Source of the DNA: Cytophagaceae bacterium
GTDB taxonomy: Bacteria > Bacteroidota > Bacteroidia > Flavobacteriales > Flavobacteriaceae
Length of the DNA stretch: 64,000 nucleotides
Assembly (NCBI GenBank): GCA_002710685.1
Contig: PALD01000045.1
Span: forward strand, 1-64,000
Direction: 5' to 3'
Shown here: piece by piece, positions 808-64,000 of the stretch
How the letters are laid out: the number at the start of each line of letters is the position of its first letter
Position numbering within the stretch: position 1 is the stretch's first letter
Made by a program: the position numbers and the translations under genes
Notes under the pieces: model-generated
The model's database searches: none
The model's input: only the letters and a program-made list of their open reading frames with translations
What the model was told of the DNA's origin: nothing

Positions 808-2157
808 ATGCTCACAGGAATTCCACTTTTACTTGTCATCGCGCTATCTATCGTGCTCATCGTGGTGCTGACTTCGCGGTTTAAAGCACACCCATTTCTC
901 GCGCTCATCATCGCCTGCTTTTTTGTGGGAATCGCCAGCGGGATGCCGCTTGACTTGATGATAGGTTCCATACAAAGCGGTTTTGGGAGCCTGATGCAAT
1001 ACATTGGGATTATCGTGATTTTTGGGAGTGTGATCGGGGTTTTCTTAGAAAAATCTGGCGGGGCGATGCGTATTGCACAACAAATTATTTCCCTTACGGG
1101 GAAAGGAAAAACCATCCCGGCCCTTTCCATTATCGGGGCGGTGGTGAGTGTGCCGGTGTATTGTGATAGCGGATTCATCCTGCTTTCTGGGCTGGCAGAT
1201 AAACTGGGGAAGTTGGGCAAGGTCAACAAGGCTAGCTTAAGTCTGGCGCTTGCTTCTGGCTTGTACACTTCGCACACGTTGATTCCGCCTACGCCAGGAC
1301 CTATTGCGGCAGCAGGAAACATCGGCGCATCAGCATATCTGGGGACGATTATCATTACAGGGATTTGTTTTTCAATCCCTATTCTGATTGTTACGCAATG
1401 GCTTTCTAAAAAACTAGGCAAAAACATCAAGACGGAAGACGTACTGGATGACGCTGAGACGCAAGAACCACGCGAACTGCCCTCTTTCGCGAAAGCGATA
1501 ACACCTGTAGTTCTGCCCATTTTGCTAATCGCGGTGGGAACGGTTTTCCGATTTCTCGAAATAGAAAATGCCATCATCGAATTTATCAGCAATCCCATGG
1601 TCGCTATTTTCATAGGAGCCTTGTCAGCGATGTTTTGGCTTAAGCCAAAGGGAAACAAAGCGGCCGGAAACTGGTTTGTGGAAGCCATAAAGATTTCTGG
1701 ACCTATCTTGATAATCACAGGTGCCGGAGGCGCTTTTGGCGGCGTTTTAAAAGCCACGCCTTTGCAGGATTTTATCGCACAATGGTTGGCCGAAGGAACC
1801 GGCGACCTGATGGTCATCGTAAGCATCTTTGTGATTTCGGCGATATTGAAGTCGGCGCAAGGGTCATCTACCAGTGCAATGGTGATAACCTCGTCCTTAC
1901 TGGCGTCAATTATTCCCACACTGGGTTGGGAAAATCCGTTGCAATTTGCTTTTGCCGTGATGGCGATAGGCGGCGGGGCGATGACGGTATCGCACTTTAA
2001 TGATAGTTATTTTTGGGTGGTTTCGCAGTTTAGCGGTATGAGTGCCAAGGATACTTCGCGGGGCTATACGTTGCTTACCGGCGTGCAGGGGCTGCTAGTG
2101 CTGGGGTTGTGTTTATTGGGTTGGTTGGTTTTTTTTATAAGTATTGGTGATGGCTAG
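808..2157 (+). CDS. GntP-family gluconate/organic acid:proton symporter
   Basis: This 449-residue, almost wholly hydrophobic protein fits the usual length of GntP permeases, inner-membrane proton symporters for gluconate or related sugar acids. Family-like segments are visible: an early glycine-rich helix pair (residues about 45-75), the conserved VPVYCDSGFILL region near 113-124, LIPPTPGPIAAA near 152-163, and AQGSSTSAMV near 351-360. The substrate cannot be read from sequence, and no sugar-acid kinase or dehydratase gene lies beside it. The start is the first ATG after the repeat array. A copy of the dispersed hairpin word (1484-1497) lies in the gene and encodes S-F-A-K-A in a hydrophilic loop. 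Confidence 0.88.
   Translation: MLTGIPLLLVIALSIVLIVVLTSRFKAHPFLALIIACFFVGIASGMPLDLMIGSIQSGFGSLMQYIGIIVIFGSVIGVFLEKSGGAMRIAQQIISLTGKGKTIPALSIIGAVVSVPVYCDSGFILLSGLADKLGKLGKVNKASLSLALASGLYTSHTLIPPTPGPIAAAGNIGASAYLGTIIITGICFSIPILIVTQWLSKKLGKNIKTEDVLDDAETQEPRELPSFAKAITPVVLPILLIAVGTVFRFLEIENAIIEFISNPMVAIFIGALSAMFWLKPKGNKAAGNWFVEAIKISGPILIITGAGGAFGGVLKATPLQDFIAQWLAEGTGDLMVIVSIFVISAILKSAQGSSTSAMVITSSLLASIIPTLGWENPLQFAFAVMAIGGGAMTVSHFNDSYFWVVSQFSGMSAKDTSRGYTLLTGVQGLLVLGLCLLGWLVFFISIGDG
1484..1497. repeat. Dispersed hairpin word (GCGNAAGC family), CGCG form
   Basis: CTTTCGCGAAAGCG lies inside gntP. Read as one strand it can fold as a CGC/GCG stem closing a GAAA loop. See the finding on the dispersed hairpin word. 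Confidence 0.6.
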
Positions 2158-3193
2158 AATAATTGGAGAACTAGGGACATGGGAAACTCTGAAAAGGAAA
2201 GTCAATATTTATAAAGAATGGGCATTTGAAGATTTAGATTCAATCCAAAATTTTAAGGTTAATTATCAATTCCACCGCAATTCTATACTAGAGAATTCAA
2301 GAAAAATTGTCGTTCAAAAATTTGAAACCTCGAAGAAACAATTAGAGTCAAATACAAGAAAAAGACAAAATAACGAAGACTTCCTTTTAAATTATAAACA
2401 TAAAAAAGAACAAGAGGTAAAGAAAAGTAGGGATGACATTTTTAAAGCAAATAATCCATCTTCTATTCAAAAATTAGAATCTTTTCTAGTTAGGCAATCT
2501 AAATACTTTTCAAATTTTTTCAAGAACCTTTCCATCAAATGGGAGGTGGCTAATTTGGACAAAAAAATCAATAGAGATTCCAGATACGTTTATGATTTTG
2601 AAACAAATAGAGAGATGTTGATTGAAAATGAAGCCAAATACGATTTGAGAAAGCTAGATAAGGTTCACGGAATAATAAATAATCTAAACTTGGAAATTGC
2701 CGGGCTCATCGGGGAAAAGGCAGTTTTAAATGAACTTAGTAAACTTCCGGATAACTATACTATAATCAATAACTTTAATATAAAATTTAAAAAGCCGCTA
2801 TATCATAAGAGAACCGATTCTTACATTAAAAGCGTTCAAATTGACCATTTGATAGTCTGCGCATCAGGAATCTTTGTTATTGAAACAAAAAATTGGAGTT
2901 TAGACTCTTTAGAAAATGAAAATCTATTTTCCCCTGTTAATCAAGTTCAACGCCATGGATATGCAATTTTCAGAATGGTTAGTGAAAATTTTAATTTTTG
3001 AGATAATTGGTCAAAGAAAAAAATTCCGATAAGAAATATTCTGACTTTTAAAACTTATGGTCCTATGAGTAGATATGAATTTGTAGCGATTAAACATCCA
3101 AAAGAATTAAATCGATATATAACGTATTTTAAACCTGTTTTGAAAACCACGGAGATTGAAAAATTAGTTAGTTATTTTTCAAAGTATAGGTAG
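2150..3193 (+). pseudogene. NERD-domain protein gene interrupted by an in-frame TGA
   Basis: The ATG at 2150 overlaps the end of gntP by 8 bp; the frame is also open to a TTG at 2144. The first 200 residues are lysine-rich and probably coiled coil. A NERD (nuclease-related) domain follows, seen as GEKAVLNEL and then the core IDHLIVCASGIFVIETKNW. The frame stops at TGA 2999-3001, in the middle of the domain. Beyond it the same frame stays open for 63 codons to TAG 3191-3193, and it continues with domain-like sequence (KKKIPIRNILTF, then YITYFKPVLKTTEIEKL). One nonsense change therefore splits an otherwise intact gene. NERD proteins are thought to act on nucleic acids. A sequencing error or readthrough remains possible. 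Confidence 0.72.
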
Positions 3194-3225
3194 GATGCGT
3201 TTAACTTGAAAAACTCATTTATATA

Positions 3226-4512: not shown

Positions 4513-6194
4513 TTTCCTGACCTGCGTTTAGATTTTTTGATGTATTTGTCCAGCATTTTCTGGTCTGGCACGGTGGTGACGACTTTGGTATTTGCGATTT
4601 CAAACTGCTTTAAAGCCGCTGCATACCAACCGCGCTCAAAGTAATATTTTCCAGTTAAAAAATAGGCCTTCCAGTACTCCGGATTATTTTTGGCTAGAGC
4701 CAAAATCACATTTTTCTCAACATCTTCATTCTGCTCCAGCGTTTGCTCTACCTCACGTTCTAGCTTTCGGTAAGCTTCATAATCTTTAAATTCTTGTGTT
4801 TCCACGAAAGGGTCTCTGGCAATTGTAAGTGCATCATCAGCGAGTGTGGTCGCCGAGGGATTGCCCGCCCGATTTGCAAAAACAGCATCCAAATCATAGC
4901 ACACAAACGCACCCAATTGATACGGATTTGCCGAAACCCAAACCTTGCGCTCCTCAGGTTTAAACACGATGCCGTGGTGGGCGAGGAGTTGGTTAAGCGC
5001 CTTCTCATTGCCGTATCCCAGCGGTTCGCCGTCAATACCCTTAGTGTCTCTCAATATGGCAACGGCCTTTTCGGGAGTCATTTTATCTTCTTTGTCAACT
5101 AACTGGGTCAAACGTTCAAAACGATATTCGGTGTGGCTTTCTGCGATGGTTTTCTGGTTTCGGCGGTCGTCTTTGTACACCTCGCTCTGAAAGTGATTTG
5201 TGCACAACAATTCGTCGTTATTAGGCACTTCATACACACCAAAATTCTTCGGAGAAACTTCAATCAACACTGCGCGGCGCTCATTTGCACTGCCCACCAT
5301 GATAGATTCTGAGACAAAAACCTCACGTTTTTTCGCAATAGCGATAGCCTCATCAATGGTGCTTGCATGTTGCAGAATTTCGCGGGTAACAAGCGTGATA
5401 GGCGTTTTCGCGATAAGCGGAATCTTGGACTTCCCGGCATTGATGGTCACGGTGAGGCCGGCATCGTTCATACCACTCACCACACCCAGAAATCCGCCCC
5501 AAGTGATTTGCATAAACTTGTTGCCCTCGTCTGGCGCATAGAACGCGATAATCTTATTTTTTGCGAATTCATCGCCAGCGTAGAAGTCAAAATTTCGCGC
5601 AAGCAATAACTCGTCATCAGCAGTTTTATCGCCCCAAACTGCAAACGAAGAACAGCCCACGAGCATCAAATCCTGCAACGCATGACCTATGTCGTGCGCG
5701 CCGTGCATATACAGAACGCGCAGATATTGTGGCGCAAAATCATTGTAAGCAGGGTCAGCAAACTGGCTTACGCCAAAAATCTCAGCCTTGTATTCATTGG
5801 GAATATAGGTGTACATTTTTCGGTTGAACCAGCGGATGAACTTGGTCAAAAAGTTGCGCTGCCCTTTAGAAGGAACGAGGTCATAAATCTTGTCGAGAAA
5901 CACCTGTTCCTGATAATTGAAAAGTTCTTCGGTGAGGCTTCCGGTAAGCAATCCACGTTGTAAAGGGTCGCCTTCAACGTATAATTCCCAGAGGCCATAT
6001 TTATTTTTGGTAAGGAAATTATCGCCCGCAAAATAGGTAGAATCATTGATTTTTTCCCGCTGTGGAACCGCATCAGAATATGCAGATAAATCAGGCTTGT
6101 CTTCCAGCGATTTTTTGACTCCGCATGAAGACAGCAGGAAGAGAAAGCTCAGTAAAAAGAGGATATTCCAGCGAAAGCTATTGTTCTTCAGCAT
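4509..6194 (-). CDS. C45-type autoproteolytic acyltransferase/hydrolase lipoprotein
   Basis: 561 residues. The N-terminus is a lipoprotein signal ending LLSSC, with the lipidated Cys at about residue 24, so the protein should sit in a periplasm-facing membrane. The central domain resembles peptidase C45 / acyl-CoA:6-aminopenicillanate acyltransferase. The expected nucleophile after self-cleavage is Cys181 in GCSSFAVW, followed by LLLARNFDFY. The last about 80 residues look TPR-like. This family recurs in flexirubin/aryl polyene clusters, where an acyl-transfer or ester-forming step is plausible but unproven here. The start overlaps the upstream cupin gene by 17 bp. A copy of the dispersed hairpin word (5765-5779) writes F-G-V-S-Q at residues 140-144. 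Confidence 0.8.
   Translation of the reverse strand: MLKNNSFRWNILFLLSFLFLLSSCGVKKSLEDKPDLSAYSDAVPQREKINDSTYFAGDNFLTKNKYGLWELYVEGDPLQRGLLTGSLTEELFNYQEQVFLDKIYDLVPSKGQRNFLTKFIRWFNRKMYTYIPNEYKAEIFGVSQFADPAYNDFAPQYLRVLYMHGAHDIGHALQDLMLVGCSSFAVWGDKTADDELLLARNFDFYAGDEFAKNKIIAFYAPDEGNKFMQITWGGFLGVVSGMNDAGLTVTINAGKSKIPLIAKTPITLVTREILQHASTIDEAIAIAKKREVFVSESIMVGSANERRAVLIEVSPKNFGVYEVPNNDELLCTNHFQSEVYKDDRRNQKTIAESHTEYRFERLTQLVDKEDKMTPEKAVAILRDTKGIDGEPLGYGNEKALNQLLAHHGIVFKPEERKVWVSANPYQLGAFVCYDLDAVFANRAGNPSATTLADDALTIARDPFVETQEFKDYEAYRKLEREVEQTLEQNEDVEKNVILALAKNNPEYWKAYFLTGKYYFERGWYAAALKQFEIANTKVVTTVPDQKMLDKYIKKSKRRSGK
5765..5779. repeat. Dispersed hairpin word, GTAA loop form
   Basis: On the minus strand this reads TTTTTGGCGTAAGCC: a GGC/GCC stem with a GTAA loop. 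It encodes F-G-V-S-Q in the C45 lipoprotein. Confidence 0.55.
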
Positions 6195-8286: not shown

Positions 8287-10724
8287 TTTGCTAATTTTTT
8301 CATTAGCTTATTCGCTAATTTGAATAAAATCGGTTGCACAACAAACACAACAAGTACCGCTGAAAAAATCCCAATTACTGATATTAGCGAGATACTTTGC
8401 AGCGCAGGATGTTTGGCGAAAGCCAAAACACCAATCCCCAGAATCGTCGTGAGCATAGAAAGCAAAATGCTCGATTTATACGTAGTCAGCTCCGTATTTT
8501 GCTTGTTTTTCAGCAGCAGGCCGTTTGTCATAAAAATGGCATAATCAATCCCCAAACCAAAAATGAAGGTCGTGATGATGATATTAAAAACATTAAAATG
8601 CAAGTCAAAAATGCCCATGATACCAAGAGTTAAAAACCACGTAATCCCAATAGGGATAAGCGTTACCAGCGTCACAAAAATATTGCGATAGGAGAGCAGC
8701 AGGATGAGTACAACCGCAATGAGCGAGTAGAGAATTAGCTTGTTAAAGTCTGAGGTGAGCGAACTCAAAAATGTCTCGTTGAGGTTTTCGCGGTCTACAA
8801 CAAGTATGTTTTGGCTTGCGCCAAAAGTGCTTGCGAGAAGTTTTGCGTTTTCTTCCTTAGTTTTTACCAAAGTCGTGATGATGGTGAGTCCGTTTTTTTG
8901 CGAAACAAAATCTTTGACGGGCAGCGTTTCTAAAGTGCTGTAATCGTCAAGCTGTAATGGTTTAAAATCTTTTGCCAATAGCGCATTGAACGCATCAAAA
9001 TCCTTTCTTCTAAATCCTATTGTTGTTCCGTAAACTTCAAGGTTTTGCTCTGTGTTTTGAATCTTCTCGTCAGTCCAGAAGGTGTTCCAAGCGTTGATTT
9101 TCTCTTTTTGCTTTTCAGCGGAAGGAACGAGGGCGGCAATTGAATTATAGCTAAGGATTTTTTGGTTTGCCTGAAGTTTTTCAAGTTTAGTTTTTACTAA
9201 ATCATTTGCTTTAAGCGCTTCTTCTTCGGTAGTACCATAACTGGCAATGTAAACCGACTTGTCTCCCATCTGGGTGATTTGTTCCAGATTCTTTTCCGCG
9301 GAAGCGATATCCTCTGGCATAAAGTTGAGCGCAGAAAGGTCTTTTTCAAACTTCACCTTGTTGAATGTGAAAACTGAAACAAGCACAAGCAATGCGAGAC
9401 CAGCTATCAGGATTTTATTTTTATGAAATTGGTACGCAGAAATGCGGTCTAACAAGGTTTGTTTTTTCGCCGGTTTGAGACCGCCACGATACGCCAGCGG
9501 AATAAAAATCAATGCAAAAATCGATGCGACAAGAACGCTCAAACCTGCAAAAAGCCCCAAGTCCTGCAACGCCGGACTGTCTAAAAACAGCAAGCAGAAA
9601 AACGCTAAGGCAGTCGTAAGACTGCTCATTAAAAGCGGTTTTGTGACATGTTCAAACATCGCTTTCACCGATGCGTTATTGCGTAAATGTGTGAGAATAT
9701 GCAGCGCATAATCAAGCGTGATTCCCAGTAAAACGGAGCCAATGCCCAATGAAATCGCAGAAATACTTTCTCTAACAAATCCTAGTATGACAATGGCCAG
9801 TAATCCCGCAAAAAGTGTGGGGATAAATAGAATAAGCGGTACTAAAAGTTTGCGGTAAAACAAGATGAAAATGAGCAGCAACACGGCAAGCGCAATGGTA
9901 ACTGTGTACTTAATATCGCTCTGAATTTGATCAGCATTTGCAACGCTTATCAGCATCCCGCCGAAATACGAAATGCTCGCTTGCCCCTCGAATTTAGTGT
10001 CTAATTCAGTTTTGAGTTGGTAGAGATAATCAGAGAAAATCTTGTTTTTGCCGGTTTCGCTCGTTGGGAATTTTGGCGAGATAAACAGCAGCAGATTTTT
10101 ATCGTTTTTAGTTACGAGAAAACCATCAACCAATTTAAACTGGTCTTGCTTCCCGAATTCTTGCAGCTCTTCCATTCCTAAAAAGGAAATGCCCAGCGGG
10201 TCTTGCAAAATCGTCCTGCGGGAAATCATCCCAAAAGGTGAATTCAAGTTTTTGTAACTCGACTCCAGTTGCAATTTTAAACTATCGGGTTGCAGTCTGT
10301 TTTCAATGGTTTTATAGTCAGCGCTATCCATAAAAACAGGTAGATTTTCATACACAAAATCAATAGCTTCAAAGGCAGAGCGATTACCGACTTTCCCCTG
10401 AATTTCGGTGAAATAATCGCTTGCATTTGTGTTGAGACTGTCAATAAAACTTTCCGCGTAAGCGATAAGATGTTCACTGTTAGCCACTGAATCTGCCTGA
10501 ATTGTAACGATAACTTTATCGGCAAAATTCATGTTTTGCAGCACCTCTTGTTTCGTCTTGTTCTGCTCATTTACAGGAACAAGTCTCGAGATATCTTCTT
10601 CAAATTTTATTTGGGTCACGCCCAAAATCATCAAAGTAAAAACAACGATTAGCCCGATTAATGCAGGGATTTTCCGTTGGCTCAGCCATTGATGCGTTTT
10701 GAAGAAAAACCTATGCATAGGCAA
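8283..10724 (-). CDS. MMPL/RND-family lipid exporter
   Basis: 813 residues with the two-fold RND layout: one N-terminal helix, a large periplasmic domain (about 45-240), a block of five or six helices (about 270-430), one further helix, a second periplasmic domain and a second helix block (about 660-810). MMPL proteins move lipids and hydrophobic products across or out of the inner membrane. In aryl polyene and flexirubin clusters they are paired with a LolA-like carrier, as here (12931-13536). Its start overlaps the GT2-DUF2062 stop by 14 bp. Two hairpin words lie in the gene: 8412-8427 (A-F-A-K-H) and 8809-8827 (F-G-A-S-Q). Confidence 0.87.
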   Translation of the reverse strand: MPMHRFFFKTHQWLSQRKIPALIGLIVVFTLMILGVTQIKFEEDISRLVPVNEQNKTKQEVLQNMNFADKVIVTIQADSVANSEHLIAYAESFIDSLNTNASDYFTEIQGKVGNRSAFEAIDFVYENLPVFMDSADYKTIENRLQPDSLKLQLESSYKNLNSPFGMISRRTILQDPLGISFLGMEELQEFGKQDQFKLVDGFLVTKNDKNLLLFISPKFPTSETGKNKIFSDYLYQLKTELDTKFEGQASISYFGGMLISVANADQIQSDIKYTVTIALAVLLLIFILFYRKLLVPLILFIPTLFAGLLAIVILGFVRESISAISLGIGSVLLGITLDYALHILTHLRNNASVKAMFEHVTKPLLMSSLTTALAFFCLLFLDSPALQDLGLFAGLSVLVASIFALIFIPLAYRGGLKPAKKQTLLDRISAYQFHKNKILIAGLALLVLVSVFTFNKVKFEKDLSALNFMPEDIASAEKNLEQITQMGDKSVYIASYGTTEEEALKANDLVKTKLEKLQANQKILSYNSIAALVPSAEKQKEKINAWNTFWTDEKIQNTEQNLEVYGTTIGFRRKDFDAFNALLAKDFKPLQLDDYSTLETLPVKDFVSQKNGLTIITTLVKTKEENAKLLASTFGASQNILVVDRENLNETFLSSLTSDFNKLILYSLIAVVLILLLSYRNIFVTLVTLIPIGITWFLTLGIMGIFDLHFNVFNIIITTFIFGLGIDYAIFMTNGLLLKNKQNTELTTYKSSILLSMLTTILGIGVLAFAKHPALQSISLISVIGIFSAVLVVFVVQPILFKLANKLMKKLAN
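8412..8427. repeat. Dispersed hairpin word, full TTTGGCGAAAGCCAAA
   Basis: A perfect 6-bp stem TTTGGC/GCCAAA closes a GAAA tetraloop on the plus strand. It lies within the MMPL gene. Confidence 0.65.
8809..8827. repeat. Dispersed hairpin word, GCAA loop form
   Basis: On the minus strand this reads TTTTGGCGCAAGCCAAAA, a 7-bp stem with a GCAA loop. It encodes F-G-A-S-Q in the second periplasmic domain of the MMPL protein. Confidence 0.65.
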
Positions 10725-11936: not shown

Positions 11937-12305
11937 TTATTTTTTCTTGTAGAGCATCGCGCCCTTGAGCACGATGGTCCCGTCGGGCAGGGTAATCAGG
12001 ATTTTGCTTTTCTGGCTTTCGCCAAAGAGGGTCAGGTCAAATTGAAAATGGAGTATTTCATGTTTCAGCGGGTTCACGGGTGCAAGAAACTTGATATTGG
12101 GTATTTTTTGAAGTAAAAACCCGGTTTTAAGGGCATCCTCCAGCACTTCGCGGCACATTTGTATCAAGCATACCCCAGGCACGATGGGCTCCCCAGGAAA
12201 ATGCCCGGCAAATATGGGGTGGTTTGGGTTGAGCTGGGTAGAGGCTTGTATTGTGGTTGCTACTTTTTCATTTGAGGTTATGAAATAAAAATCATCTTTT
12301 AACAT
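11937..12305 (-). CDS. FabZ-like hotdog 3-hydroxyacyl-ACP dehydratase homologue
   Basis: 122 residues with one hotdog fold. The core reads HPIFAGHFPGEPIVPGVC, matching the catalytic-His region of FabZ (GHFPG-x-P-x-x-PGV). The catalytic Glu expected seven or eight residues later appears as Gln (VCLIQMCREVL), so dehydration may be weak or absent, or the reaction may differ. It belongs to the pigment operon, where repeated keto-reduction and dehydration build the polyene; the second hotdog protein (18887-19321) keeps both residues. A hairpin word at 12013-12026 gives F-G-E-S-Q near the C-terminus. Downstream is the GT2-DUF2062 gene; upstream is the DUF2442/DUF4160 cassette. Confidence 0.8.
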   Translation of the reverse strand: MLKDDFYFITSNEKVATTIQASTQLNPNHPIFAGHFPGEPIVPGVCLIQMCREVLEDALKTGFLLQKIPNIKFLAPVNPLKHEILHFQFDLTLFGESQKSKILITLPDGTIVLKGAMLYKKK

Positions 12306-13536: not shown

Positions 13537-14273
13537 GCTTGCTGCAGTTGTGAAATGGTGACCAATTTATGACCGCTAAGTCTTGGTAATATAACTTTCA
13601 ACGCTTCAAGTGTTTGCGGCCGTGTGTCGTGCATCAAGATTATACTTCCAGGTTTTACCTTATTTAGTATCCTTTTTGTGATTGTTTGAGGATTTTTTAT
13701 CACAGTGTCAAAGCTGCGCACGTTCCACCCAATGACCTGATGACCGGTTTCTTTGACAACTTTTGCGATAGTGGGATTTGTCACCCCAAAAGGCGGCCTG
13801 AACAATGTATTCGCCTGTTTGAGAATGGCATCCGTTTGTTCCAGTTCTGTTTTTATCTGGCTTTCGCCAAAAAAAGGAAACGTGTTTTTATGTGAGTAAC
13901 TGTGATTTCCCACTCCATGTCCTTCTTCAAGAATACGTTTTAGGATTTCAGGATGCTTTTCAGCATGTTGACCGATACAGAAGAATGTCGCTTTTGCATT
14001 GTGCTTTTTGAGCAAATCAAGAATTTGCGGTGTGATTTCAGGATGTGGGCCATCATCAAAAGTGAGCGCTAAAACCTTCTGTGAAGTTCTCTTGTAATTG
14101 AAAGCTTCCAGGAAGAAATTCCATTGTATTTGAAACGAAATCACAAAGAAAATCAATGGCAGTACTAAAAATGAAAAGACCGCAAACCAGATGGATAATC
14201 CCAGCATCAAACCCATGGCTACGATAGCGGCAAAAATCAAAATGAGCCAGATTTGTTTGTTTGACCTTAGCAT
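13533..14273 (-). CDS. Polysaccharide deacetylase-family (NodB) protein
   Basis: 246 residues. Two membrane helices (about 8-50) precede a NodB homology domain. Motif 1 is LTFDDGPHPE (first Asp and metal Asp), motif 2 is HSYSHKNTF (near residue 123; its HSxSH spacing is the usual metal-binding pair), motif 3 is LFRPPFG, and a late IILMHD holds the catalytic His. All metal-dependent deacetylase residues seem present, so it is probably an active amide or ester hydrolase at the outer face of the inner membrane. In pigment clusters its substrate is not established. The hairpin word at 13859-13872 gives F-G-E-S-Q. It overlaps both neighbours by a few bases. Confidence 0.83.
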   Translation of the reverse strand: MLRSNKQIWLILIFAAIVAMGLMLGLSIWFAVFSFLVLPLIFFVISFQIQWNFFLEAFNYKRTSQKVLALTFDDGPHPEITPQILDLLKKHNAKATFFCIGQHAEKHPEILKRILEEGHGVGNHSYSHKNTFPFFGESQIKTELEQTDAILKQANTLFRPPFGVTNPTIAKVVKETGHQVIGWNVRSFDTVIKNPQTITKRILNKVKPGSIILMHDTRPQTLEALKVILPRLSGHKLVTISQLQQA

Positions 14274-15244
14274 GATTTCAGTAGCGTGAAGGTGTGATTC
14301 TCGCCTTTAAATTGATTGTAAATTAAAACTGTATTTGCTTCATTGTACTTCAGTTTTTCAACTGCCATCCAGAAAGCAACTACTGAAGCTGTGTGAAATT
14401 CACCGCTGTATTCTTTAAAATTCAAGCGCTTTGCAGAAGAAAGTTGTTCAGAAACCTTATCAAAGAATCCATCAAATTCATCGCCGTTATTTCCGGAGAG
14501 AAGCAAGTCGATTTCCCCAGCTGAAACTTTATTTTCAGTTAAGAAATCATTCAGTTTTTCCTCAACTTCTTCAGATTTGATTTTGCTGTAAATTGCTACA
14601 TCTGTTAGCTGAGCGATGGCGTTTTTCTTTTCGCTGCCAAGCATAAAAAAACCAGCGCCTTCACTAAATGGAACTTTGATTTTTTCCTGCTGTAACTCAT
14701 TTTGCAAAATCACATAATCGATGAATTCATCGCCTAATTCGTCTACCCCGCCCACTAAAATGTTTTGAGCTTCTTCAGCAAGAATCAGCAATTGCGCATC
14801 TATCACCGCCGACTCAAAAGAAGCCGCGCCGTGCACGTGATTGTTATTGTAACCATGGCATTTTAACGCAAGCGCAATTTGCGCCGCCACGGTGTTATGC
14901 GTGCTTTGAATAAAAGCGGTAGGCGTGAGGTATTGCTCATCATCAGCGATGAGTTTGTTAAGAAATTTCTCAGTATCCTCGTTACAACCCATCCCCGTGC
15001 CGGTGATGATGGCATCTGGGATTTCGAGATTGACTTGCGCTAGCGATTTTTTCGCGGCAGCGAAACCCATTTTAACACTAGTTGCCATACGACGCGCTTG
15101 CGCCGGCGGGATGAATTCGCGATAGTTGGGGTGAATTGCTTCAACCTTTTTATCTGTTATGTTTAGCTTGTTTAGAATCTGGCTTTCGCCAAAAGTATCC
15201 TGTGCCGATATCAACGCTGCGCTATGTATAAAAATGGGTTTCAT
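14267..15244 (-). CDS. Ketosynthase-like chain-length-factor homologue (no catalytic Cys)
   Basis: 325 residues from the ATG at 15244, which overlaps the stop of the upstream ketosynthase gene as ATGA; the frame is open to 15271, but the coupled ATG is preferred. The fold is thiolase-like. Where active ketosynthases have TACSS or TACAS, this one reads HGAASFESA, so the Cys is gone. The AHGT histidine region reads SGNNGDE. The second His is kept (GEFHTASV). This pattern fits a chain-length factor that partners an active ketosynthase in type II polyketide or aryl polyene systems. The neighbour at 15241-16455 is the obvious partner. A hairpin word at 15181-15194 gives F-G-E-S-Q near the start. 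Confidence 0.78.
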   Translation of the reverse strand: MKPIFIHSAALISAQDTFGESQILNKLNITDKKVEAIHPNYREFIPPAQARRMATSVKMGFAAAKKSLAQVNLEIPDAIITGTGMGCNEDTEKFLNKLIADDEQYLTPTAFIQSTHNTVAAQIALALKCHGYNNNHVHGAASFESAVIDAQLLILAEEAQNILVGGVDELGDEFIDYVILQNELQQEKIKVPFSEGAGFFMLGSEKKNAIAQLTDVAIYSKIKSEEVEEKLNDFLTENKVSAGEIDLLLSGNNGDEFDGFFDKVSEQLSSAKRLNFKEYSGEFHTASVVAFWMAVEKLKYNEANTVLIYNQFKGENHTFTLLKSC

Positions 15245-16699: not shown

Positions 16700-17298
16700 G
16701 CGTATAGGTAATCTAGATTATTTGAGGTGTGTTCCAGCTGGCCAGAACGGGTGAGCAAATATAAAAAGGATTTCGCGTTTACGCCGTCAAAATCTGCCCA
16801 ACCGCACAACACTTGTTCACATTTACCCGTTTGCAACAAGCTCTCGCAATAAGCGTGCAAAAGTTGAGCATTGAAGTTTTTTGATACAAAAAAAGCGTTC
16901 TCCCCCTGTATTTTATGGCGTATGCAAATCTCACCCATGCCTATATTGGGCAAGGTATACACAAAGTTTGCCGGGCTGGGATAAAAATTTTCAGGGTCAT
17001 TGATACTTTCTTGGTGCAAGCGGTCAATATCCAGGCTAGAACTGTGGTTTGACAGAACAATGGCCATATTGTTGTCAAATTCAAGCTCCCTTGATAAGAC
17101 TTCCGTAGACAGGAAGCACAGCTTGCTCAGGTTATCCATTTTGTGAAACTTGGGGTAAGCAAGCTTCAGGTGCTTGTACAATGCTTTCGCGAAAGCGTTA
17201 AAATCATGGTTCTTGGTCTGTTCAAAGACCGGCTCTCCATTGATGTAAAGTACGTTGTCTTCTATCCTACAGTAACCGTTGATATAACTGTTGCTCAT
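16678..17298 (-). CDS. Small ketosynthase-like protein of the pigment cluster
   Basis: 206 residues from the ATG at 17298, which overlaps the TGA of the upstream ketosynthase gene (17295-17298). The frame is open further upstream but the coupled ATG is the natural start. It has half the length of a ketosynthase. A stretch near residues 80-130 (AIVLSNHSSSLDIDRL, then FVYTLPNIGMGEICIRH) resembles an N-terminal thiolase fold, but no catalytic Cys can be assigned. Proteins of this type sit at the same place in flavobacterial aryl polyene clusters and are often labelled ketosynthase. A scaffold or partner role is likelier than catalysis. The perfect word at 17183-17197 encodes A-F-A-K-A. Confidence 0.6.
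   Translation of the reverse strand: MSNSYINGYCRIEDNVLYINGEPVFEQTKNHDFNAFAKALYKHLKLAYPKFHKMDNLSKLCFLSTEVLSRELEFDNNMAIVLSNHSSSLDIDRLHQESINDPENFYPSPANFVYTLPNIGMGEICIRHKIQGENAFFVSKNFNAQLLHAYCESLLQTGKCEQVLCGWADFDGVNAKSFLYLLTRSGQLEHTSNNLDYLYACNIWKN
17183..17197. repeat. Dispersed hairpin word, palindromic GCTTTCGCGAAAGC
   Basis: A perfect 14-bp palindrome plus one base, inside the small KS-like gene. Confidence 0.65.
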
Positions 17299-47427: not shown

Positions 47428-47442
47428 GGCTTTCGCCAAAAG
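47428..47442. repeat. Dispersed hairpin word, intergenic copy
   Basis: GGCTTTCGCCAAAAG lies in the gap after the lptD stop, one of the few copies outside genes. Confidence 0.6.
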
Positions 47443-50317: not shown

Positions 50318-51415
50318 ATGCTTATGAAAACGAGATTTATTTATATCATAGTATGTACAATATTTCTTTTTGGCGGGCTTTCGCCAAATGGGATTCACGC
50401 GCAGTCCAGCCAGAAGTTTGTTGTTGTCCTGGACGCCGGCCATGGTGGCAAGGACCCCGGGAAGCCCTCTAAATATGGCTATCGCGAGAAGGATATCGCG
50501 CTCAAGATCGTGCTTGATGTGGGCAAGGAACTTGAGAAGCATAAAGATATCAAGGTCATCTATACCCGCAAGACAGACGTTTTTGTTGACCTTTTTGAAC
50601 GGGGCAAGATTGCAAACAAGGCTGATGCTGACTTATTCGTATCCGTGCATTGCAATGCGCATACCTCGCAGGCCCATGGTGCCGAGACCTATGTGCTGGG
50701 GCTGCATAGGAACAAGACAAACTTTGAAGTGGCAAAGGCAGAGAACGAGGTTATTTTCCTGGAGGATAACTATGAAGAAAAATATGCCCAGTATGATATC
50801 AATTCGCCAGAGTCTGTCATTGGGCTGACGATGATGCAAGAAGAATTCCTGGACCAGAGCATTCAGCTGGCGAGCTTGATACAGGATAACTTTCGCGAAA
50901 AGCTAAAAAGAAAAGACCGCAGTGTCAAACAGGCCGGGTTTATCGTACTGCATCAAACGGTGATGCCCAGCGTGCTTATCGAGACCGGTTTTATAACCAA
51001 TACCGAAGAAGGAAAATACCTCAATTCTTCAAGGGGCCAGGCGGCCATTGCCGGTGCCATATCTTCTGCAATAAGTGATTACAAGACCAATGTTGATACT
51101 AATGACGTGCTGCATATAAGCGATGTGGTCCCTGCGGTTCAAGTGGATGACAAGGTGTATGAGGGCGTGACCTTTAAGGTGCAGATTGCCGCCAGCAGCA
51201 AGGACCTGGATACAAAACCGTACAATTTTAAAGGGCTCAGGGATATTTCAAAAGCCAAGGAGGGCAAACTCTTTAAATACTACTACGGGGCGACCTCAAA
51301 CTATACACAAATCAGTGAAAAATTGGCGGAGGCAAAAAGAAAGGGATATAGCACCGCGTACATTGTTTCTTTTAAAAATGGGATCAAAACACCTGTGAAG
51401 AATATATTAAATTAA
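50318..51415 (+). CDS. N-acetylmuramoyl-L-alanine amidase with C-terminal SPOR-like domain
   Basis: About 365 residues from ATG 50318 (MLMKTRFIYIIVC; the next ATG, at 50324, is equally good). The frame is open from 50210, but the signal peptide (ending GIHAQ) begins here. The amidase-3 domain shows VVLDAGHGGKDPG (zinc His), then EKDIALKIV (zinc Glu), VSVHCNAH (second zinc His) and VLIETGFITN (catalytic Glu). The last about 90 residues resemble a SPOR/peptidoglycan-binding tail (FKVQIAASSKDL). It cleaves septal peptidoglycan. The hairpin word at 50375-50388 falls in the signal peptide. Confidence 0.88.
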   Translation: MLMKTRFIYIIVCTIFLFGGLSPNGIHAQSSQKFVVVLDAGHGGKDPGKPSKYGYREKDIALKIVLDVGKELEKHKDIKVIYTRKTDVFVDLFERGKIANKADADLFVSVHCNAHTSQAHGAETYVLGLHRNKTNFEVAKAENEVIFLEDNYEEKYAQYDINSPESVIGLTMMQEEFLDQSIQLASLIQDNFREKLKRKDRSVKQAGFIVLHQTVMPSVLIETGFITNTEEGKYLNSSRGQAAIAGAISSAISDYKTNVDTNDVLHISDVVPAVQVDDKVYEGVTFKVQIAASSKDLDTKPYNFKGLRDISKAKEGKLFKYYYGATSNYTQISEKLAEAKRKGYSTAYIVSFKNGIKTPVKNILN

Positions 51416-55083: not shown

Positions 55084-55971
55084 ATGGCTTCACGTAAGTA
55101 TAAGATTGCTGTAATTCAACTTAATTTAAATAATACACCCCAGTATAATTTAGAGAAATGCATGCAGTGGGTGCGTGATGCCGCTGCTCAGGGAGCAGAG
55201 GTTATCAGCCTGCCAGAGCTGTATGGTAGTCATTATTTTTGTCAAAGTGAGGACACTGCAAACTTTGACCTGGCTGAACCACTTTATGGTGTTTCTTTCA
55301 AAGCTTTTTCCGCTTTAGCGAAAGAACTGGGCGTGGTAATCGTCGTGCCATTCTTTGAGAAGCGCATGAACGGGATTTATCATAACAGCGCCTATATTCT
55401 AGATACTGATGGTACTGAAGCTGGCCTGTACCGCAAGATGCACATCCCAGATGACCCGCACTATTATGAGAAATTTTACTTCACGCCTGGTGACATAGGT
55501 TTTAAGGCCTTCCAGACTAAAAAGGCTAAGGTGGGAACACTCATCTGCTGGGACCAGTGGTATCCAGAGGCTGCCAGGCTCACTGCTTTGCAGGGCGCAG
55601 AAGTTTTGTTTTATCCCACGGCCATAGGCTGGCACCCGCATGAGAAAGAGCAGTATGGCACAAATCAACACGGTGCCTGGATGAACGTTATGAAAGGTCA
55701 TGCCGTGGCAAACGGAATTTATGTAGCTGCTGCCAATCGTATCGGGCTGGAGCAATACCTGCCAGATACCGCGGGAATTGAATTTTGGGGTGCATCATTT
55801 ATTTGTGGGCCGCAGGGCGAAATTTTGGCGCAAGCCTCACATGACAAAGAAGAGATACTTATCGCCGAGATTGACATGAACCTCATGGAAGATGTGCGTC
55901 GCAACTGGCCATTTTTTAGGGACAGGCGAATTGAGAATTATGGAGACATCACAAAACGCGCAATAGATTAA
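55084..55971 (+). CDS. aguB: N-carbamoylputrescine amidase
   Basis: 295 residues of the nitrilase superfamily. The Glu-Lys-Cys triad appears in ISLPELYGSHYF, YRKMHIPDDPHYYEKFYF and LICWDQWYPEAARL. The DQWYPE segment is characteristic of N-carbamoylputrescine amidase. It makes putrescine, CO2 and ammonia. Its stop TAA shares one base with the start of the agmatine deiminase gene, so both steps are translated together. A hairpin word at 55824-55836 lies near the C-terminus (L-A-Q-A-S). Confidence 0.92.
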   Translation: MASRKYKIAVIQLNLNNTPQYNLEKCMQWVRDAAAQGAEVISLPELYGSHYFCQSEDTANFDLAEPLYGVSFKAFSALAKELGVVIVVPFFEKRMNGIYHNSAYILDTDGTEAGLYRKMHIPDDPHYYEKFYFTPGDIGFKAFQTKKAKVGTLICWDQWYPEAARLTALQGAEVLFYPTAIGWHPHEKEQYGTNQHGAWMNVMKGHAVANGIYVAAANRIGLEQYLPDTAGIEFWGASFICGPQGEILAQASHDKEEILIAEIDMNLMEDVRRNWPFFRDRRIENYGDITKRAID

Positions 55972-57008
55972 TGGCCGTCCAGAGACGCTTTCCGGCAGAG
56001 TGGGAGAAGCAGGAGGGAATTTTGCTGGCTTTTCCGCACAACGGCAATGACTGGCCAGGTAAATTTCAAGCGATAAAGTTTGCCTTTGTAGAGTTTATTA
56101 AAAAAGTATCTACCTATGAGCAGGTTTTTTTGGTGGTCGCAAGCAAGGAGCATCAAGACAATGTGCAAGAACTATTAAAGTTGGCACATGTGGACCTGGA
56201 TAAGATCACATTTATCATTCAAAAGACAAACCGTAGCTGGATGCGTGATTCTGGGCCTATTATCGTTTACACGAAAGAAGGTCGAGAGGCACTCAACTTC
56301 AATTTTAACGGGTGGGCAAAGTATACAAATTATCAGCTTGATAAAGCCATTCCTGAGGCTGTTGCCAAAACTTTAAAACTTAAAACCACACAAGTAACTT
56401 ACAAAGGCAAACCGGTAATTCTTGAAGGTGGAGCGATTGATGTAAATGGAAAAGGAACATTGATAACTTCTGAAGAATGCCTGCTTCACCCGGAAATCCA
56501 AGTGCGTAATGCAGGATTTACCAAAGCAGATTATGAAGCAATCTTTAAAGAATATTTGGGCATTACAAATACCATCTGGATGGATTGTGGCATCGTGGGT
56601 GATGATACCCACGGGCATATTGATGACCTCTGTAGGTTTGTAGATGAAAAAACAATTGTCACCGTTGTTGAAGAGGATAAAAACGATGATAATTATAAGG
56701 TTCTTCAGGTTAACCTGAACAGGTTGAAAAATGCAAAACTTGAAGATGGAAGTTCACCAAAAATCGTGACCTTGCCCATGCCCAGAAAAATTCTTTTTGA
56801 TGGGTTGCGTCTACCTGCGAGCTACGCAAATTTCTTGATTTTAAACAACTGTGTGCTTGTTCCGGTGTTTAATGATGCACAAGACCGTATAGCGCTAAAT
56901 ACTCTTGCCAGCTGTTTTCCGGGTAGGGAAATCATCGGTATTTCGGCGATAGATTTAATCTGGGGTTTTGGTACACTGCATTGCTTGAGTCAGCAAATTC
57001 CGGCGTAA
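55971..57008 (+). CDS. aguA: Agmatine deiminase
   Basis: 345 residues, PAD-fold guanidine-modifying enzyme. Visible motifs: NRSWMRDSGPI (substrate Asp), DCGIVGDDTHGHIDDLCRF with the catalytic His and Asp, and the C-terminal catalytic Cys in GFGTLHCLSQQIPA. Converts agmatine to N-carbamoylputrescine, the substrate of the preceding gene. No arginine decarboxylase is present here. A hairpin word overlaps the stop region (57002-57011, GTAA loop). Confidence 0.92.
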   Translation: MAVQRRFPAEWEKQEGILLAFPHNGNDWPGKFQAIKFAFVEFIKKVSTYEQVFLVVASKEHQDNVQELLKLAHVDLDKITFIIQKTNRSWMRDSGPIIVYTKEGREALNFNFNGWAKYTNYQLDKAIPEAVAKTLKLKTTQVTYKGKPVILEGGAIDVNGKGTLITSEECLLHPEIQVRNAGFTKADYEAIFKEYLGITNTIWMDCGIVGDDTHGHIDDLCRFVDEKTIVTVVEEDKNDDNYKVLQVNLNRLKNAKLEDGSSPKIVTLPMPRKILFDGLRLPASYANFLILNNCVLVPVFNDAQDRIALNTLASCFPGREIIGISAIDLIWGFGTLHCLSQQIPA

Positions 57009-58775: not shown

Positions 58776-58801
58776 AACCTAATTTAACAAACTTTAATAC
58801 A

Positions 58802-60076
58802 ATGCTAAAGGATACCGAAATCTTTGACCTGATTGAGCAGGAAAAACAACGGCAAATAAATGGTTTAGAGCTTATTGCATCTGAAAATTTTGTGAGTGAA
58901 GAAGTGCTCGCGGCAGCAGGTTCTGTATTGACTAACAAATATGCTGAGGGGTATCCTGGCAAAAGATATTATGGAGGTTGCGAAGTCGTTGACCAGATTG
59001 AAGATATTGCCCGCGATAGGGCCAAGGAACTTTTTGACGCTGAGTATGTAAACGTGCAGCCACACTCTGGCTCGCAGGCTAACGCAGCCGTATTTCATAC
59101 CTGCCTTAAGCCGGGAGATACTTTCCTAGGCTTTGACCTGGCGCATGGCGGTCACCTAACACACGGTTCACCCGTTAACTTTTCAGGAAAGTTCTACAAC
59201 GCCGTTTTCTATGGCGTTGATAAAGAAACTGGGCGTCTCGACTATGATAAGATTGAGCAAATTGCCCTGGAGACCAAACCCAAAATGATTATCGCCGGTG
59301 CATCTGCTTACAGCCGTGAGATAGATTATGCCCGCTTTCGCGAAATAGCCGACAAGGTAAACGCTATCCTGTTTTGTGACATGGCCCACCCAGCGGGATT
59401 GATTGCTAAAGGTGTTATAGGTGACCCGGTGCCGCATTGCCATGTTTGTACAACAACGACCCATAAGACCCTGCGCGGCCCACGCGGTGGGATGATTCTC
59501 ATGGGCAAGGATTTTGAAAATCCATTTGGCATCAAACTAAAAAATGGAAACTTGCGCATGATGTCTTCTTTACTGGACAGCGGAATCTTCCCGGGGAATC
59601 AAGGTGGACCATTAGAGCATATCATTGCTGCTAAGGCAATCGCCTTTGGTGAAGCCCTTACAGATGAATTTTTACACTACGCAGTGCAGGTAAAGAAAAA
59701 TGCAGCGGTAATGGCCAGGGCATTCGTGGCAAAGGGGTATGACATCATTTCTGGAGGTACAGACAATCACATGATGCTCATTGACCTGCGCAATAAAGAT
59801 GTTTCTGGTAAGGAGGCTGAAGAGGCATTGGGCAAAGCGCACATAACCGTGAATAAGAACATGGTACCCTTTGACACCCGTTCTCCATTTGTTACTTCAG
59901 GAATGCGCATAGGTGTTGCGGCCGTGACCACGCGCGGTCTTAAAGAGGCTGATATGGAGAAAATAGTTGACTTTATCGACGCGGTAATCACAAATTTTGA
60001 CAATGATGAAAAACTTGCGGCGATAGGAGAAGAGGTGAAAGCGATGATGCAAGACAAGCCTCTATTTGTGATGTAA
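58802..60076 (+). CDS. glyA: Serine hydroxymethyltransferase
   Basis: 424 residues. [19 protein letters not shown] and [15 protein letters not shown] at the start, then the PLP-binding Lys in [16 protein letters not shown], and [15 protein letters not shown] near the end. Makes glycine and methylene-tetrahydrofolate. Followed by a strong terminator. A hairpin-word copy in the Tyr-Ser-Arg region (59333-59346) encodes R-F-R-E. Confidence 0.96.
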
Positions 60077-60104
60077 AATAATTTGCCTTTCGGCGAAAAG
60101 AAAA

Positions 60105-60128: not shown

Positions 60129-60579
60129 ATTCTATAGCTGTTATCTGTATGGTCTTGCCTCTAAAGGTGATATTTTCACCAATGCTTTTTCCTTTTAATA
60201 ATTCTCCTATGGGAGAGGAAAGTGAAATGCAAAAAATGTCCTGTCCCTCAAGTGACAGGGCACCTAGGCTAATAGCCAAAAAGTAAATGCCTTGTTGCGT
60301 ATGGACCAAACTGCCAAAATGAGCCCTGTCATGGTTGTTTGGCGAAAGCCTACTTAATTCTTGTTTTTGATTCAAAGTCTGATTTAGCTGCCGCTCCACA
60401 TTACCAAGTTCAATATCTGCCATGGCACGGCCGGTTTCAAACTTGTCTCCCGCGCTACTTTTTGTGTCACTGTCGCGAGATTCCTGAATGCTGGCAATGT
60501 GCTGCTTGAAAGCATCTATTTTTTCATCGAGATACTCATGCAGGTGCAGGGTAAGCCTTTCTTTAAATGTTGATTGCAT
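60127..60579 (-). CDS. GreA/GreB-family protein
   Basis: 150 residues. A coiled-coil N-terminal half (about 1-75, SAGDKFETGRAMADIELGNV) is followed by an FKBP-like C-terminal domain (GIYFLAISLGAL, then ISLSSPIGELLKGKSIGENI), the layout of transcript-cleavage factors. The SPIG(E/K)ALLGK-type signature of GreA is recognisable. Relatives are sometimes mislabelled 3-oxoacyl-ACP synthase in this group. It may act on RNA polymerase. A hairpin word at 60338-60350 gives L-S-P-N in the linker between the two domains. Confidence 0.78.
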   Translation of the reverse strand: MQSTFKERLTLHLHEYLDEKIDAFKQHIASIQESRDSDTKSSAGDKFETGRAMADIELGNVERQLNQTLNQKQELSRLSPNNHDRAHFGSLVHTQQGIYFLAISLGALSLEGQDIFCISLSSPIGELLKGKSIGENITFRGKTIQITAIE

Positions 60580-60585
60580 ACGTGT

Positions 60586-62105: not shown

Positions 62106-62136
62106 GATGAACGTTTCTTTTGAAGTATCTGCTGTA

Positions 62137-62520: not shown

Positions 62521-62593
62521 AATTACATTTTATAGTTAAGGTCTTGTTAACGTCAAAAATGATAAAAATTCTTATTGTGCCAAAATTTTTATT

Positions 62594-64000
62594 CTATTTC
62601 TTTTCCTCGAGCTGTTTTTCATAAAGCTCCTTGTAGTAGCCATCTACCTTGATGAGTTGCTCGTGCTTGCCCTGTTGGATGATTTTTCCATCTTCGAGTA
62701 TGATGATGTTGTCAGCATTCTTGGCAGATGATATCCTGTGGCTTACCAAAATCGTGGTCTTGTGCTGTGAAACCTTGTTGATATTTGAGAGGATTTCCTC
62801 CTCGGTTTCCGTGTCAACGGCACTGAGGCTATCGTCAAAAAGGAGGATTTGAGGGTCCTTGATAAGTGCCCGGGCAATGCTCACGCGCTGTTTTTGTCCA
62901 CCAGAGAGGGTGATACCGCGTTCCCCCAGAATGGTTTCATATCCTTTACTAAAGCCTTCAATGTTAGTGTGCACTGCAGCCGCTTTCGCGGAAGCGATGA
63001 CTTCATCATCACTGGCGTCATATTTGCCAAATTTTATATTCTCCTTGATTGAGTCACTAAAGAGAAAGGCATCTTGCGGGACATAGCCTATGTTGCTGCG
63101 CAGCTCGTTAAGGTTGAGGTTTTTAATGGGTTTGCCGCCTATAAGTATCTCGCCGCCGGTGACATCATAGAGACGGGTGATGAGTTCAAGTATGGTGGAT
63201 TTGCCAGAACCCGTCTTGCCGATGACGGCCAGGGTCTCACCTACGGCCACCTTGAAGCTTATGTTTTTAAGGGCTGTAATATTTGTGTCACTATAGGTAA
63301 ATGTCACATTGTTGAATTCTATATCGCCGGTAACGGGGGTGTGTTCCTGTGTGGGGTTCTTGATTTCTGGTTTTTCCTTGAGGAACTCGTTGATGCGTTT
63401 TTGTGAGGCCTCTGCCTGTTGTACAAGGGAGGTAATCCATCCCACTGAGGCTACGGGCCAGGTGAGCATATTGACATAGATCAAGAACTCAACGATGACT
63501 CCTAGGTCAGGGATGGTGCCATTGAGATATTGCCTACCACCTATGTAGATCACAAGGAGGTTACTGGCGCCTATGAGTGCCACCATCAATGGAAAGAAAA
63601 ATGCCTGTACCTTGACCAGGTCAAGGTTTTTGTTACGGTTTTCTTCTGACAGGTCAGCAAACTTTAATCCGGTCTGTGGCTCTAGGCCATAGGCTTTTAT
63701 AACCCCAATACCGCTAAAGGATTCTTGCGTGAATGTGCTGAGGTGTGACAGATATTGCTGTACCACGGTGCTGCGCTTATGGATCAACCTGCTCAATTGA
63801 TAGATGGCCACGCTCAATATGGGCAAAGGTATGAGTACGTAGAGTGTAAGTGATGGCGCGGTGATATACATGTAGGGTATCACCGTTGCAAAAAGCACGA
63901 GCGTGGTCACCCCGTACATGATGGCGGGGCCTAGGTACATGCGCACTTTGGACACATCCTCGCTTATCCTGTTCATCAGGTCACCGGTACGGTTTCTTTT
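62594..64000 (-). CDS. ABC exporter, MsbA/MdlB-like, truncated by the window edge
   Basis: The C-terminal about 468 residues of a fused membrane/ATPase exporter; the 5' part lies beyond 64000 (the frame is open to the edge and reads RTGDLMNRISED, the usual intracellular loop). After the second half of the membrane domain come Walker A GKTGSGKST, the Q-loop, signature LSGGQKQR, Walker B LLFDDSLSAVD and the switch VSHR. Probably exports lipid or drug-like substrates. A hairpin word at 62981-62996 has a GGAA loop. Confidence 0.9.
   Translation of the reverse strand, partial: KRNRTGDLMNRISEDVSKVRMYLGPAIMYGVTTLVLFATVIPYMYITAPSLTLYVLIPLPILSVAIYQLSRLIHKRSTVVQQYLSHLSTFTQESFSGIGVIKAYGLEPQTGLKFADLSEENRNKNLDLVKVQAFFFPLMVALIGASNLLVIYIGGRQYLNGTIPDLGVIVEFLIYVNMLTWPVASVGWITSLVQQAEASQKRINEFLKEKPEIKNPTQEHTPVTGDIEFNNVTFTYSDTNITALKNISFKVAVGETLAVIGKTGSGKSTILELITRLYDVTGGEILIGGKPIKNLNLNELRSNIGYVPQDAFLFSDSIKENIKFGKYDASDDEVIASAKAAAVHTNIEGFSKGYETILGERGITLSGGQKQRVSIARALIKDPQILLFDDSLSAVDTETEEEILSNINKVSQHKTTILVSHRISSAKNADNIIILEDGKIIQQGKHEQLIKVDGYYKELYEKQLEEKK
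62981..62996. repeat. Dispersed hairpin word, GGAA loop form
   Basis: CGCTTTCGCGGAAGCG: read on the plus strand, CGC-GGAA-GCG forms the same stem-loop with G at the variable loop position. Inside the ABC exporter gene. Confidence 0.55.

Follow-up and report, generated by a model that had tools for sequence, protein, structure and literature searches.

The first 64,000 nucleotides of contig PALD01000045.1 (assembly GCA_002710685.1, from a Cytophagaceae bacterium), here called the window, carry many copies of a short word, GCGNAAGC or its complement GCTTNCGC. An earlier note on the letters of this window had put the copies at about forty, against roughly five expected. We counted 49 exact copies, and every range that the note gave as an example holds one. 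In 100 dinucleotide shuffles the word appeared 7.42 times on average (standard deviation 2.47, largest 14), close to the expectation in the note, and no shuffle reached 49. Open reading frames (ORFs), which were called simply and serve as genes throughout, make up 93% of the window, and 46 of the 49 copies lie inside one called ORF, matching that share.

The source genome (G000) is a draft of 4,988,172 bases in 80 contigs, flagged as 8.79% contaminated. Judging by NCBIfam matches and the names of protein relatives, it probably belongs to the family Flavobacteriaceae. Across it, GCGNAAGC occurs 2,204 times (1073 + 1131), compared with 578 (286 + 292) for the reversed word, and the longer form TTTSGCGNAAGCS occurs 839 times (391 + 448), compared with 0 + 2 for its controls. 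Most finer counts come from a genome sample of 40 stretches (L001-L020, L101-L120) plus the window, about 0.83 of 4.99 Mb (826 kb). Three of these stretches (L001, L003 and L009, from contigs C27, C31 and C43) have 64-68% G+C within a 44% G+C assembly and are probable contamination. As pieces with G+C >0.6 they are excluded from what we call the cleaned sample, but they are included in the early flank, density and strand counts (the 351-site flank profile and the 826-kb densities).

The excess is large against a codon-aware expectation as well, a comparison that the earlier note had proposed. Within the genes of the window, GCGNAAGC numbers 25 sense and 22 antisense copies, against 5.1 and 2.8 after synonymous-codon shuffling; in 548 genes of the cleaned sample the figures are 145 and 146 against 45 and 24. 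The reversed control word shows no excess in the same 548 genes (25 + 22 observed, 38 + 22 shuffled). For TTYSGCGNAAGC, these genes hold 93 + 94 copies (187) against 2.3 + 1.4 (3.7), and the largest total in 100 shuffles was 9. Because the shuffles fall far below the observed counts in both gene sets, we reject codon usage as the origin of the word.

The unit is TTY followed by a 3-bp stem, a GNAA loop and the matching stem. Among 351 unique sites, T occupies position -4 in 80% and -3 in 76%, followed by a pyrimidine at -2 and a G or C at -1. On the 3' side, A is found at +9, +10 and +11 in 44%, 33% and 53% of sites. The full TTTGGCGNAAGCCAAA extension described previously therefore holds for its 5' TT, whereas the 3' A is present in only 33-53% and the complete form is not the rule.

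The letters of the stem vary with compensation. Of 334 sites in the cleaned sample, 222 have a Watson-Crick outer pair (-1/+8), compared with 108 (standard deviation 7.9) expected, and none of 10,000 permutations reached 222; four slid controls gave no covariation or little. With the overlapping palindromic form removed, the outer pair is still Watson-Crick in 183 of 279 sites (97.6 expected). Pairing farther out is weak (-2/+9, 123 against 110 expected; -3/+10, 117 against 109; -4/+11, 176 against 163), which argues against long TTTGGC...GCCAAA arms as the unit. In the window, 33 of the 49 GCGNAAGC copies combine TT within the three bases before the stem with a Watson-Crick outer pair; the pair occurs without TT in 8 and TT without the pair in 6, and 2 copies lack both.

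A direct count of complementary 3-bp flanks around GNAA, with TT in the three upstream bases, gave 384 sites against 98.8 expected, and 169 against 85.9 once GGC, CGC and GCC stems were left out. (A looser version, in which the TT could overlap the first stem base, gave 439 against 140; the strict version removes that overlap.) Minor stems are enriched too: CGT/ACG (10 against 0.4), GCT/AGC (10 against 1.4), CCC/GGG (8 against 0.9) and GGT/ACC (6 against 0.8). When all 256 tetraloops were ranked by covariation, GAAA, GTAA, GCAA, GGAA and their complements held eight of the first nine places, with all four GNAA loops inside the top 8; the other loop in that group is CGCG, the center of the palindromic form. 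In this ranking GNGA and GNTA loops showed zero covariation, and among GNCA loops only GTCA covaried, weakly. Stem covariation and loop constraint thus both bear out the proposal that a hairpin with compensated stems and a GNAA loop, rather than a fixed word, is conserved.

Mutation could in principle produce such sites, if transient single-strand hairpins template their own correction (quasipalindrome repair) with the stable GNAA mini-hairpin as an attractor. This would account for the compensated stems and for the absence of insertions at alignable window sites (see below). However, templated copying would lengthen the stem, whereas the 5' TT is kept at 76-80% with little pairing to a 3' A. 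A DNA folding model gave -3.4 to -3.6 kcal/mol for the word hairpins, -3.4 for GAGA or GATA loops and -3.2 to -3.3 for ACAC or TTTT. Because GAGA and GATA loops fold about equally well, modelled stability does not single out GNAA, yet GNGA and GNTA loops do not covary. The strong effect is also limited to a few genera, and we regard a mutational origin as doubtful.

The sites of the window are collected in Table 1. The outer-pair analysis includes 43 window sites; five with other stems (1549, 4796, 25262, 30693 and 44701) are outside the table, which also omits GCGNAAGC copies that do not have the full stem or TT.

Table 1. Hairpin sites of the window, written as 5' bases, then stem-loop-stem
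Site	Positions	Strand	Remark
TTC CCC-GTAA-GGG	1091..1103	-	
TTT CGC-GAAA-GCG	1485..1497	+	
TTT GGC-GTAA-GCC	5765..5777	-	
TTT GGC-GAAA-GCC	8412..8424	+	
TTT GGC-GCAA-GCC	8813..8825	-	
TTC CGC-GGAA-GCG	9294..9306	+	
TTC CGC-GTAA-GCG	10452..10464	+	
TTT GGC-GAAA-GCC	12014..12026	-	
TTT GGC-GAAA-GCC	13859..13871	-	
TTT GGC-GAAA-GCC	15181..15193	-	
TTT GGC-GAAA-GCC	15584..15596	+	
TTC GCC-GCAA-GGC	16181..16193	+	Inverted stem, missed by GCGNAAGC
Overlapping GCGAAAGC pair, both strands (GCTTTCGCGAAAGC)	17183..17197	.	Full 3-bp stem only in + copy 17185-17197
Full palindrome CGCTTTCGCGAAAGCG	21821..21836	.	Within flxA; hairpin on either strand
ATT GGC-GAAA-GCC	22852..22864	+	
TTT CCC-GTAA-GGG	23591..23603	-	
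TTC CGC-GAAA-GCG	27838..27850	+	
TTT GGC-GAAA-GCC	27884..27896	+	
TTC GGC-GAAA-GCC	31279..31291	-	
TTT GGC-GAAA-GCC	31705..31717	-	
TTT GGC-GCAA-GCC	34128..34140	-	
TTT CGC-GAAA-GCG	34594..34606	-	Arisen by codon changes relative to relatives
ATT GGC-GCAA-GCC	34844..34856	+	
TTC GGC-GTAA-GCC	35901..35913	-	Possibly chance
TTT GGC-GCAA-GCC	37708..37720	+	
TTC CGC-GGAA-GCG	38049..38061	-	
TTC GCG-GAAA-CGC	38454..38466	+	Candidate site
TTT GGC-GCAA-GCC	40181..40193	+	In TamB-like gene
TTT GGC-GAAA-GCC	47428..47440	-	Outside called ORFs
TTT GGC-GAAA-GCC	50376..50388	-	
TTT GGC-GCAA-GCC	55824..55836	+	
TTT CGT-GTAA-ACG	56264..56276	-	Compensated inner pair
TTT CGC-GAAA-GCG	59333..59345	-	
TTC GCC-GAAA-GGC	60085..60097	-	
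TTT GGC-GAAA-GCC	60338..60350	+	
Overlapping hairpin-site pair	62981..62996	.	One per strand

The gene flxA (21094-22617) encodes the flexirubin tyrosine ammonia-lyase FlxA, which scores over the NCBIfam cut-off; its best named relatives are 66% identical, in a comparison from which records very near the source genome were possibly excluded. Two further words exceed expectation in the window, TTCTCGATAC with 8 copies (0.06 expected) and CCTTGAGC with 18 (2.0 expected).

We compared 18 window sites with stretches from 12 relatives of the same genus, and nine could be aligned (59-78% amino-acid identity). None of the nine has an insertion or deletion inside the word. Insertion of a small element is therefore rejected at these nine sites, and the suggestion that the word spreads as an inserted element is contradicted there. 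At five sites (34594-34606, 34844-34856, 37708-37720, 38049-38061 and 40181-40193) the codons differ from those of the relatives, partly with changed residues. The site at 35901-35913 may be a chance occurrence because several relatives have the same codons; two relatives have an insertion adjoining it. In a small and weak test of amino-acid cost, the residue of the source genome agreed with the majority of its relatives at 0.61 of 46 motif codons and at 0.69 of 2,840 others, which is the expected direction. At 35490 (window 35482-35508), some congeners share a comparable stretch whose aligned frame is broken by stop codons; this position therefore probably lies before the true start of the gene, and the stretch looks as if it were a conserved non-coding element ahead of it.

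The order of a 5' tag and a hairpin is also that of repetitive extragenic palindromic (REP) elements, which are moved or bound by a Y1 (HUH) transposase, the REP-associated tyrosine transposase (RAYT, or TnpA-REP). Matches to PF01797, the Y1 transposase family, do occur in some palindrome-rich genomes (G010, G253 and G217). However, G000, G201 and G344 contain no match at E <= 0.001, the alignable sites within genes have no insertion, and the word is not extragenic: the extended form YTTYSGCGNAAGC is as dense in genes (0.222/kb) as between them (0.237/kb). Descriptions of REPs give extragenic elements of 20-40 bp, accompanied by a Y1 transposase. Since the source genome has no PF01797 match, a REP/RAYT system is largely rejected for it and seems to us very improbable.

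The same densities show that "mostly inside genes", as the earlier note described the word, does not amount to a preference. Bare GCGNAAGC, with its chance background, stands at 0.439/kb in genes and 0.323/kb between them. Sites occur along the whole length of genes, with fewer in the last fifth (23 of 192). Intrinsic terminators look different, as the Ts here lie 5' of the hairpin and the copies are distributed along genes.

In the genes of the sample, 152 copies of GCGNAAGC are sense and 155 antisense. This equality makes a role in DNA likelier than one in RNA, and disfavors GNRA hairpins acting in transcripts through stability, processing or regulation. Although GNAA falls within GNRA, and G.T wobbles (24) are somewhat commoner than A.C (14) at the outer pair in the 96 mismatched of 279 monomer sites, an antisense copy would present a UUNC loop in RNA. 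Sense and antisense are balanced for TTYSGCGNAAGC too (93:94), and GNGA loops do not covary. The RNA structure that the earlier note had brought to mind is hence a reading to which we give very little weight.

A site for a nucleoid or segregation protein, read as duplex DNA or as an extruded cruciform, would suit the hundreds of genic and intergenic sites and the palindromic form of the word in other genera. Duplex reading, however, would not predict base-pair covariation. Orientation relative to the GC skew of each sampled piece is unbiased (124:125, and 85:82 in pieces of stronger skew) in what is a crude test on a draft, and on these figures we reject an oriented motif like Chi or the FtsK orienting polar sequences. 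Spacing is near random for the 249 sites with TT at -4 and -3, with a coefficient of variation of 0.90 and a median/mean ratio of 0.68, after 21 overlapping pairs 6 bases apart were set aside. Both results come from sampled pieces. We regard a nucleoid or segregation site as unlikely.

Density varies with base composition. Pieces of the genome's own DNA with G+C <0.38 hold 3 copies of TTYSGCGNAAGC in 73 kb (0.041/kb), those of 0.38-0.41 hold 16 in 76 kb (0.209/kb) and those of 0.41-0.55 hold 203 in 636 kb (0.319/kb); the contaminant pieces have 0 in 39 kb. Five stretches (L002, L005, L008, L015 and L017) are poor in GCGNAAGC, with 0-2 copies per 13-20 kb; L008, L015 and L017 are 36% G+C. Ten proteins from low-G+C pieces include a type I restriction subunit (encoded on L008), a YobI-like NTPase, a sugar epimerase and a glycosyltransferase, but equally a fructose-bisphosphatase, a fucose isomerase and AcrB-type pumps. 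These pieces are presumed to be acquired DNA.

We counted TTTSGCGNAAGCS in 299 genomes from 236 genera of the family. Totals comparable to that of the source genome (722-1,782 against 3-8, with each palindromic site scored once per strand) occur only in G201, in G217 and in two genomes of one genus, G010 and G253. Strong forms are thus patchy, found in 5 of the 299 genomes and 4 of the 236 genera with the source genome included. The next counts are 32-47, among them the sole counted congener (G067, 35 against 5). A survey of 395 genomes of the phylum added G344, from another family of the same class (156 against 5); in genus g128 the longer word is in milder excess, at most 70 against 10. For TTTSSCGNAAGSS, among 395 genomes of the class, the source genome (908 against 10) and G344 (541 against 12) are followed by G969 (91 against 35) and G374 (72 against 10).

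G344 and its congener G708 have the same grammar: GGC/GCC stems (also TGC in G708) and 5' Ts, with 3' A not strongly favored. A single gene was compared between them (68% protein identity). Of its 4 G344 sites, 2 are identical in G708, and as both encode the same LSAN stretch, repeats or constraint on the protein may play a part. The hairpin form is present in one genus of another family, and the palindromic form occurs in three further genera within the family of the source genome. In 80 named loci (1.6 Mb) we found 0 palindromes and 0 TTT-SSC hairpins.

Genera g11 and g206 carry the word as a 16-bp palindrome, CGCTTTCGCGAAAGCG, whose stem does not vary and which is denser between genes than within them; g190 is less strict. 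This palindrome contains the hairpin on both strands. Its orthologous sites in g11 fall into 27 groups across 18 species. All 18 species keep the palindrome intact in one genic group, and 9 of 10 do so in another, where the remaining species departs by a single base. The largest intergenic group spans 9 species; 6 others could be aligned there, of which 3 differ by one base, 2 have a gap and 1 matches exactly. Where flank identity was 60-69, 70-79 and 80-89%, comparisons between species found genic palindromes identical in 214/214, 109/121 and 33/36 cases, compared with 0.7, 1.9 and 5.3% of random genic 14-mers, and intergenic palindromes in 10/23, 15/21 and 7/10; these comparisons reuse few sites and are not independent.

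Comparison with the cyanobacterial highly iterated palindrome HIP1 (GCGATCGC), which the earlier note had drawn, is a fair one. HIP1 and its alternates are short GC-rich words of very high copy number, uneven among lineages and replaced by other words in some. HIP1 is the closest precedent for a word whose function is unsettled, and one proposal for it invokes a methylase and repair (PMC4390886). By analogy, an orphan methyltransferase and biased mismatch repair would create and maintain a fixed palindrome in the other genera, and this would have degenerated in the source genome. Consistent with such a model, the palindrome dominates g11 and g206 and, less strictly, g190; its intergenic density is 5-9 times the genic one in G217 and g11 and 2 times in G201; and some sites are conserved across species. 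HIP1 is perfectly palindromic and associated with orphan methyltransferases, whereas the word in the source genome is mostly a non-palindromic hairpin with 5' Ts: 279 of 334 sites lack the overlapping palindromic (CTTNC) form, and covariation persists in the stems of these 279 (183 against 97.6). One would expect a methylase to recognize a single duplex sequence and not to accept GGC/GCC, GCC/GGC, CGT/ACG and CCC/GGG alike. We consider this explanation improbable.

Several palindrome-poor genomes (G226, G090 and G113, in L214-L216, L222 and L223; G114 and G105, in L217-L221) carry clusters of 2-8 palindromes within a few to about 60 kb, and an identical 933-bp palindrome spacing recurs inside a 405-aa gene in three genera. 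The clusters look as if they were islands from palindrome-rich donors. A second word, SGCTTWAAGCS flanked by TTT on its 5' side and AAA on its 3' side, has the SGC stem in common with the hairpin word and is mostly intergenic in the source genome sample (68 of 106 both-strand counts; 0.536/kb between genes, 0.054/kb within). It is rare elsewhere, with 0-1 per set and 4 in the 1.6 Mb of named loci.

Stable DNA mini-hairpins of the d(GCGAAAGC) type and the hairpin promoters of phage N4 have a similar loop class with a C-G closing pair. They belong to biophysics or to a phage promoter, unlike a genome-wide signal. The covariation of the stems points to reading of a single strand, and the fixed loop together with the conserved Ts points to a protein as the reader. 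A signal maintained by biased exchange fits the rarity among genera, the high copy number, the absence of insertions and the sparseness in presumed new DNA better than a REP does. Our leading account, which we hold tentatively, is that the word may be a DNA recognition signal, present genome-wide and of the uptake or recombination type, similar to DNA uptake sequences (DUS) and read as a hairpin. The signal would be read on one strand, as 5'-TTY and then the mini-hairpin with its 3-bp GC-rich stem and GNAA loop. A putative protein would bind the Ts and the hairpin on transiently single-stranded DNA, either incoming or exposed in recombination or replication. Fragments with the signal would be favored, and copies would accumulate and stay wherever their position permits, through biased uptake and recombination as with DUS and uptake signal sequences (USS). 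In the three other genera of the family, the 16-bp palindrome would serve the same part.

Like the DUS and USS of Neisseriaceae and Pasteurellaceae, the word is present in hundreds of copies, well over what composition and codons predict, and in both orientations. It may also resemble them in being sparse in acquired DNA, provided that the low-G+C pieces are such DNA, and in the conservation of its sites, since in another genus some palindromic sites persist across species with single-base losses. Comparable behavior is described for neisserial DUS in PMC2397512. The likeness ends at the word itself, which is fixed in DUS and USS; here, in a different phylum, the stem letters are compensated and only the loop and Ts are fixed, with a near-fixed word in g11 and g206.

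Several observations weigh against an uptake or recombination signal read as a hairpin. Known DUS and USS are fixed words read as duplex DNA, and covarying stems fit a duplex reading poorly. The competence marker ComEC is found in 12 of 12 genomes tested, motif-rich and motif-poor alike; it does not discriminate and so neither supports nor harms the account. The acquired origin of the low-G+C pieces is a presumption only. In congeners the hairpin reading is limited: bare GCGNAAGC mildly exceeds the reversed word, 1.9-2.6 times, in 12 of 12, and GNAA is outside the nine top covarying loops in 234 kb from these 12 and in the 80 named loci. Covariation beyond the CGC stem is absent in g11 (108 against 99.1) and G217 (46 against 38.8) and slight in G201 (42 against 26.5). 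The figures on conservation of orthologous sites come from a different genus and from a palindrome whose stem does not vary, and only 2 of the 27 g11 groups are both genic and common to several species. One intergenic group, shared by 5 species, meets gaps in 5 of 5 others, and at two genic sites, each present in a single species, the other species have unrelated sequence (5-9 mismatches) or gaps.

To our knowledge, the highly iterated genome words described so far (DUS, USS, HIP1 and Chi) are all fixed sequences, and no paper on such an iterated word in Bacteroidota turned up in a literature search judged partly by titles. We think it quite possible, though short of probable, that this is a structure-encoded genome-wide signal, in which several GC-rich 3-bp stems with a GNAA loop behind TTY are read by a protein on single-stranded chromosomal DNA, and that it arose or was transferred separately in two Bacteroidota families. 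Pairing that is kept while letters change would imply a reader of single-stranded DNA structure across the whole chromosome. The covariation makes this testable with short oligonucleotides that carry the word (TTTGGCGAAAGCC), a compensated stem (TTTGCCGAAAGGC) or a broken stem (TTTGGCGAAAGGC), and Bacteroidota would gain a candidate signal for DNA exchange or genome maintenance.

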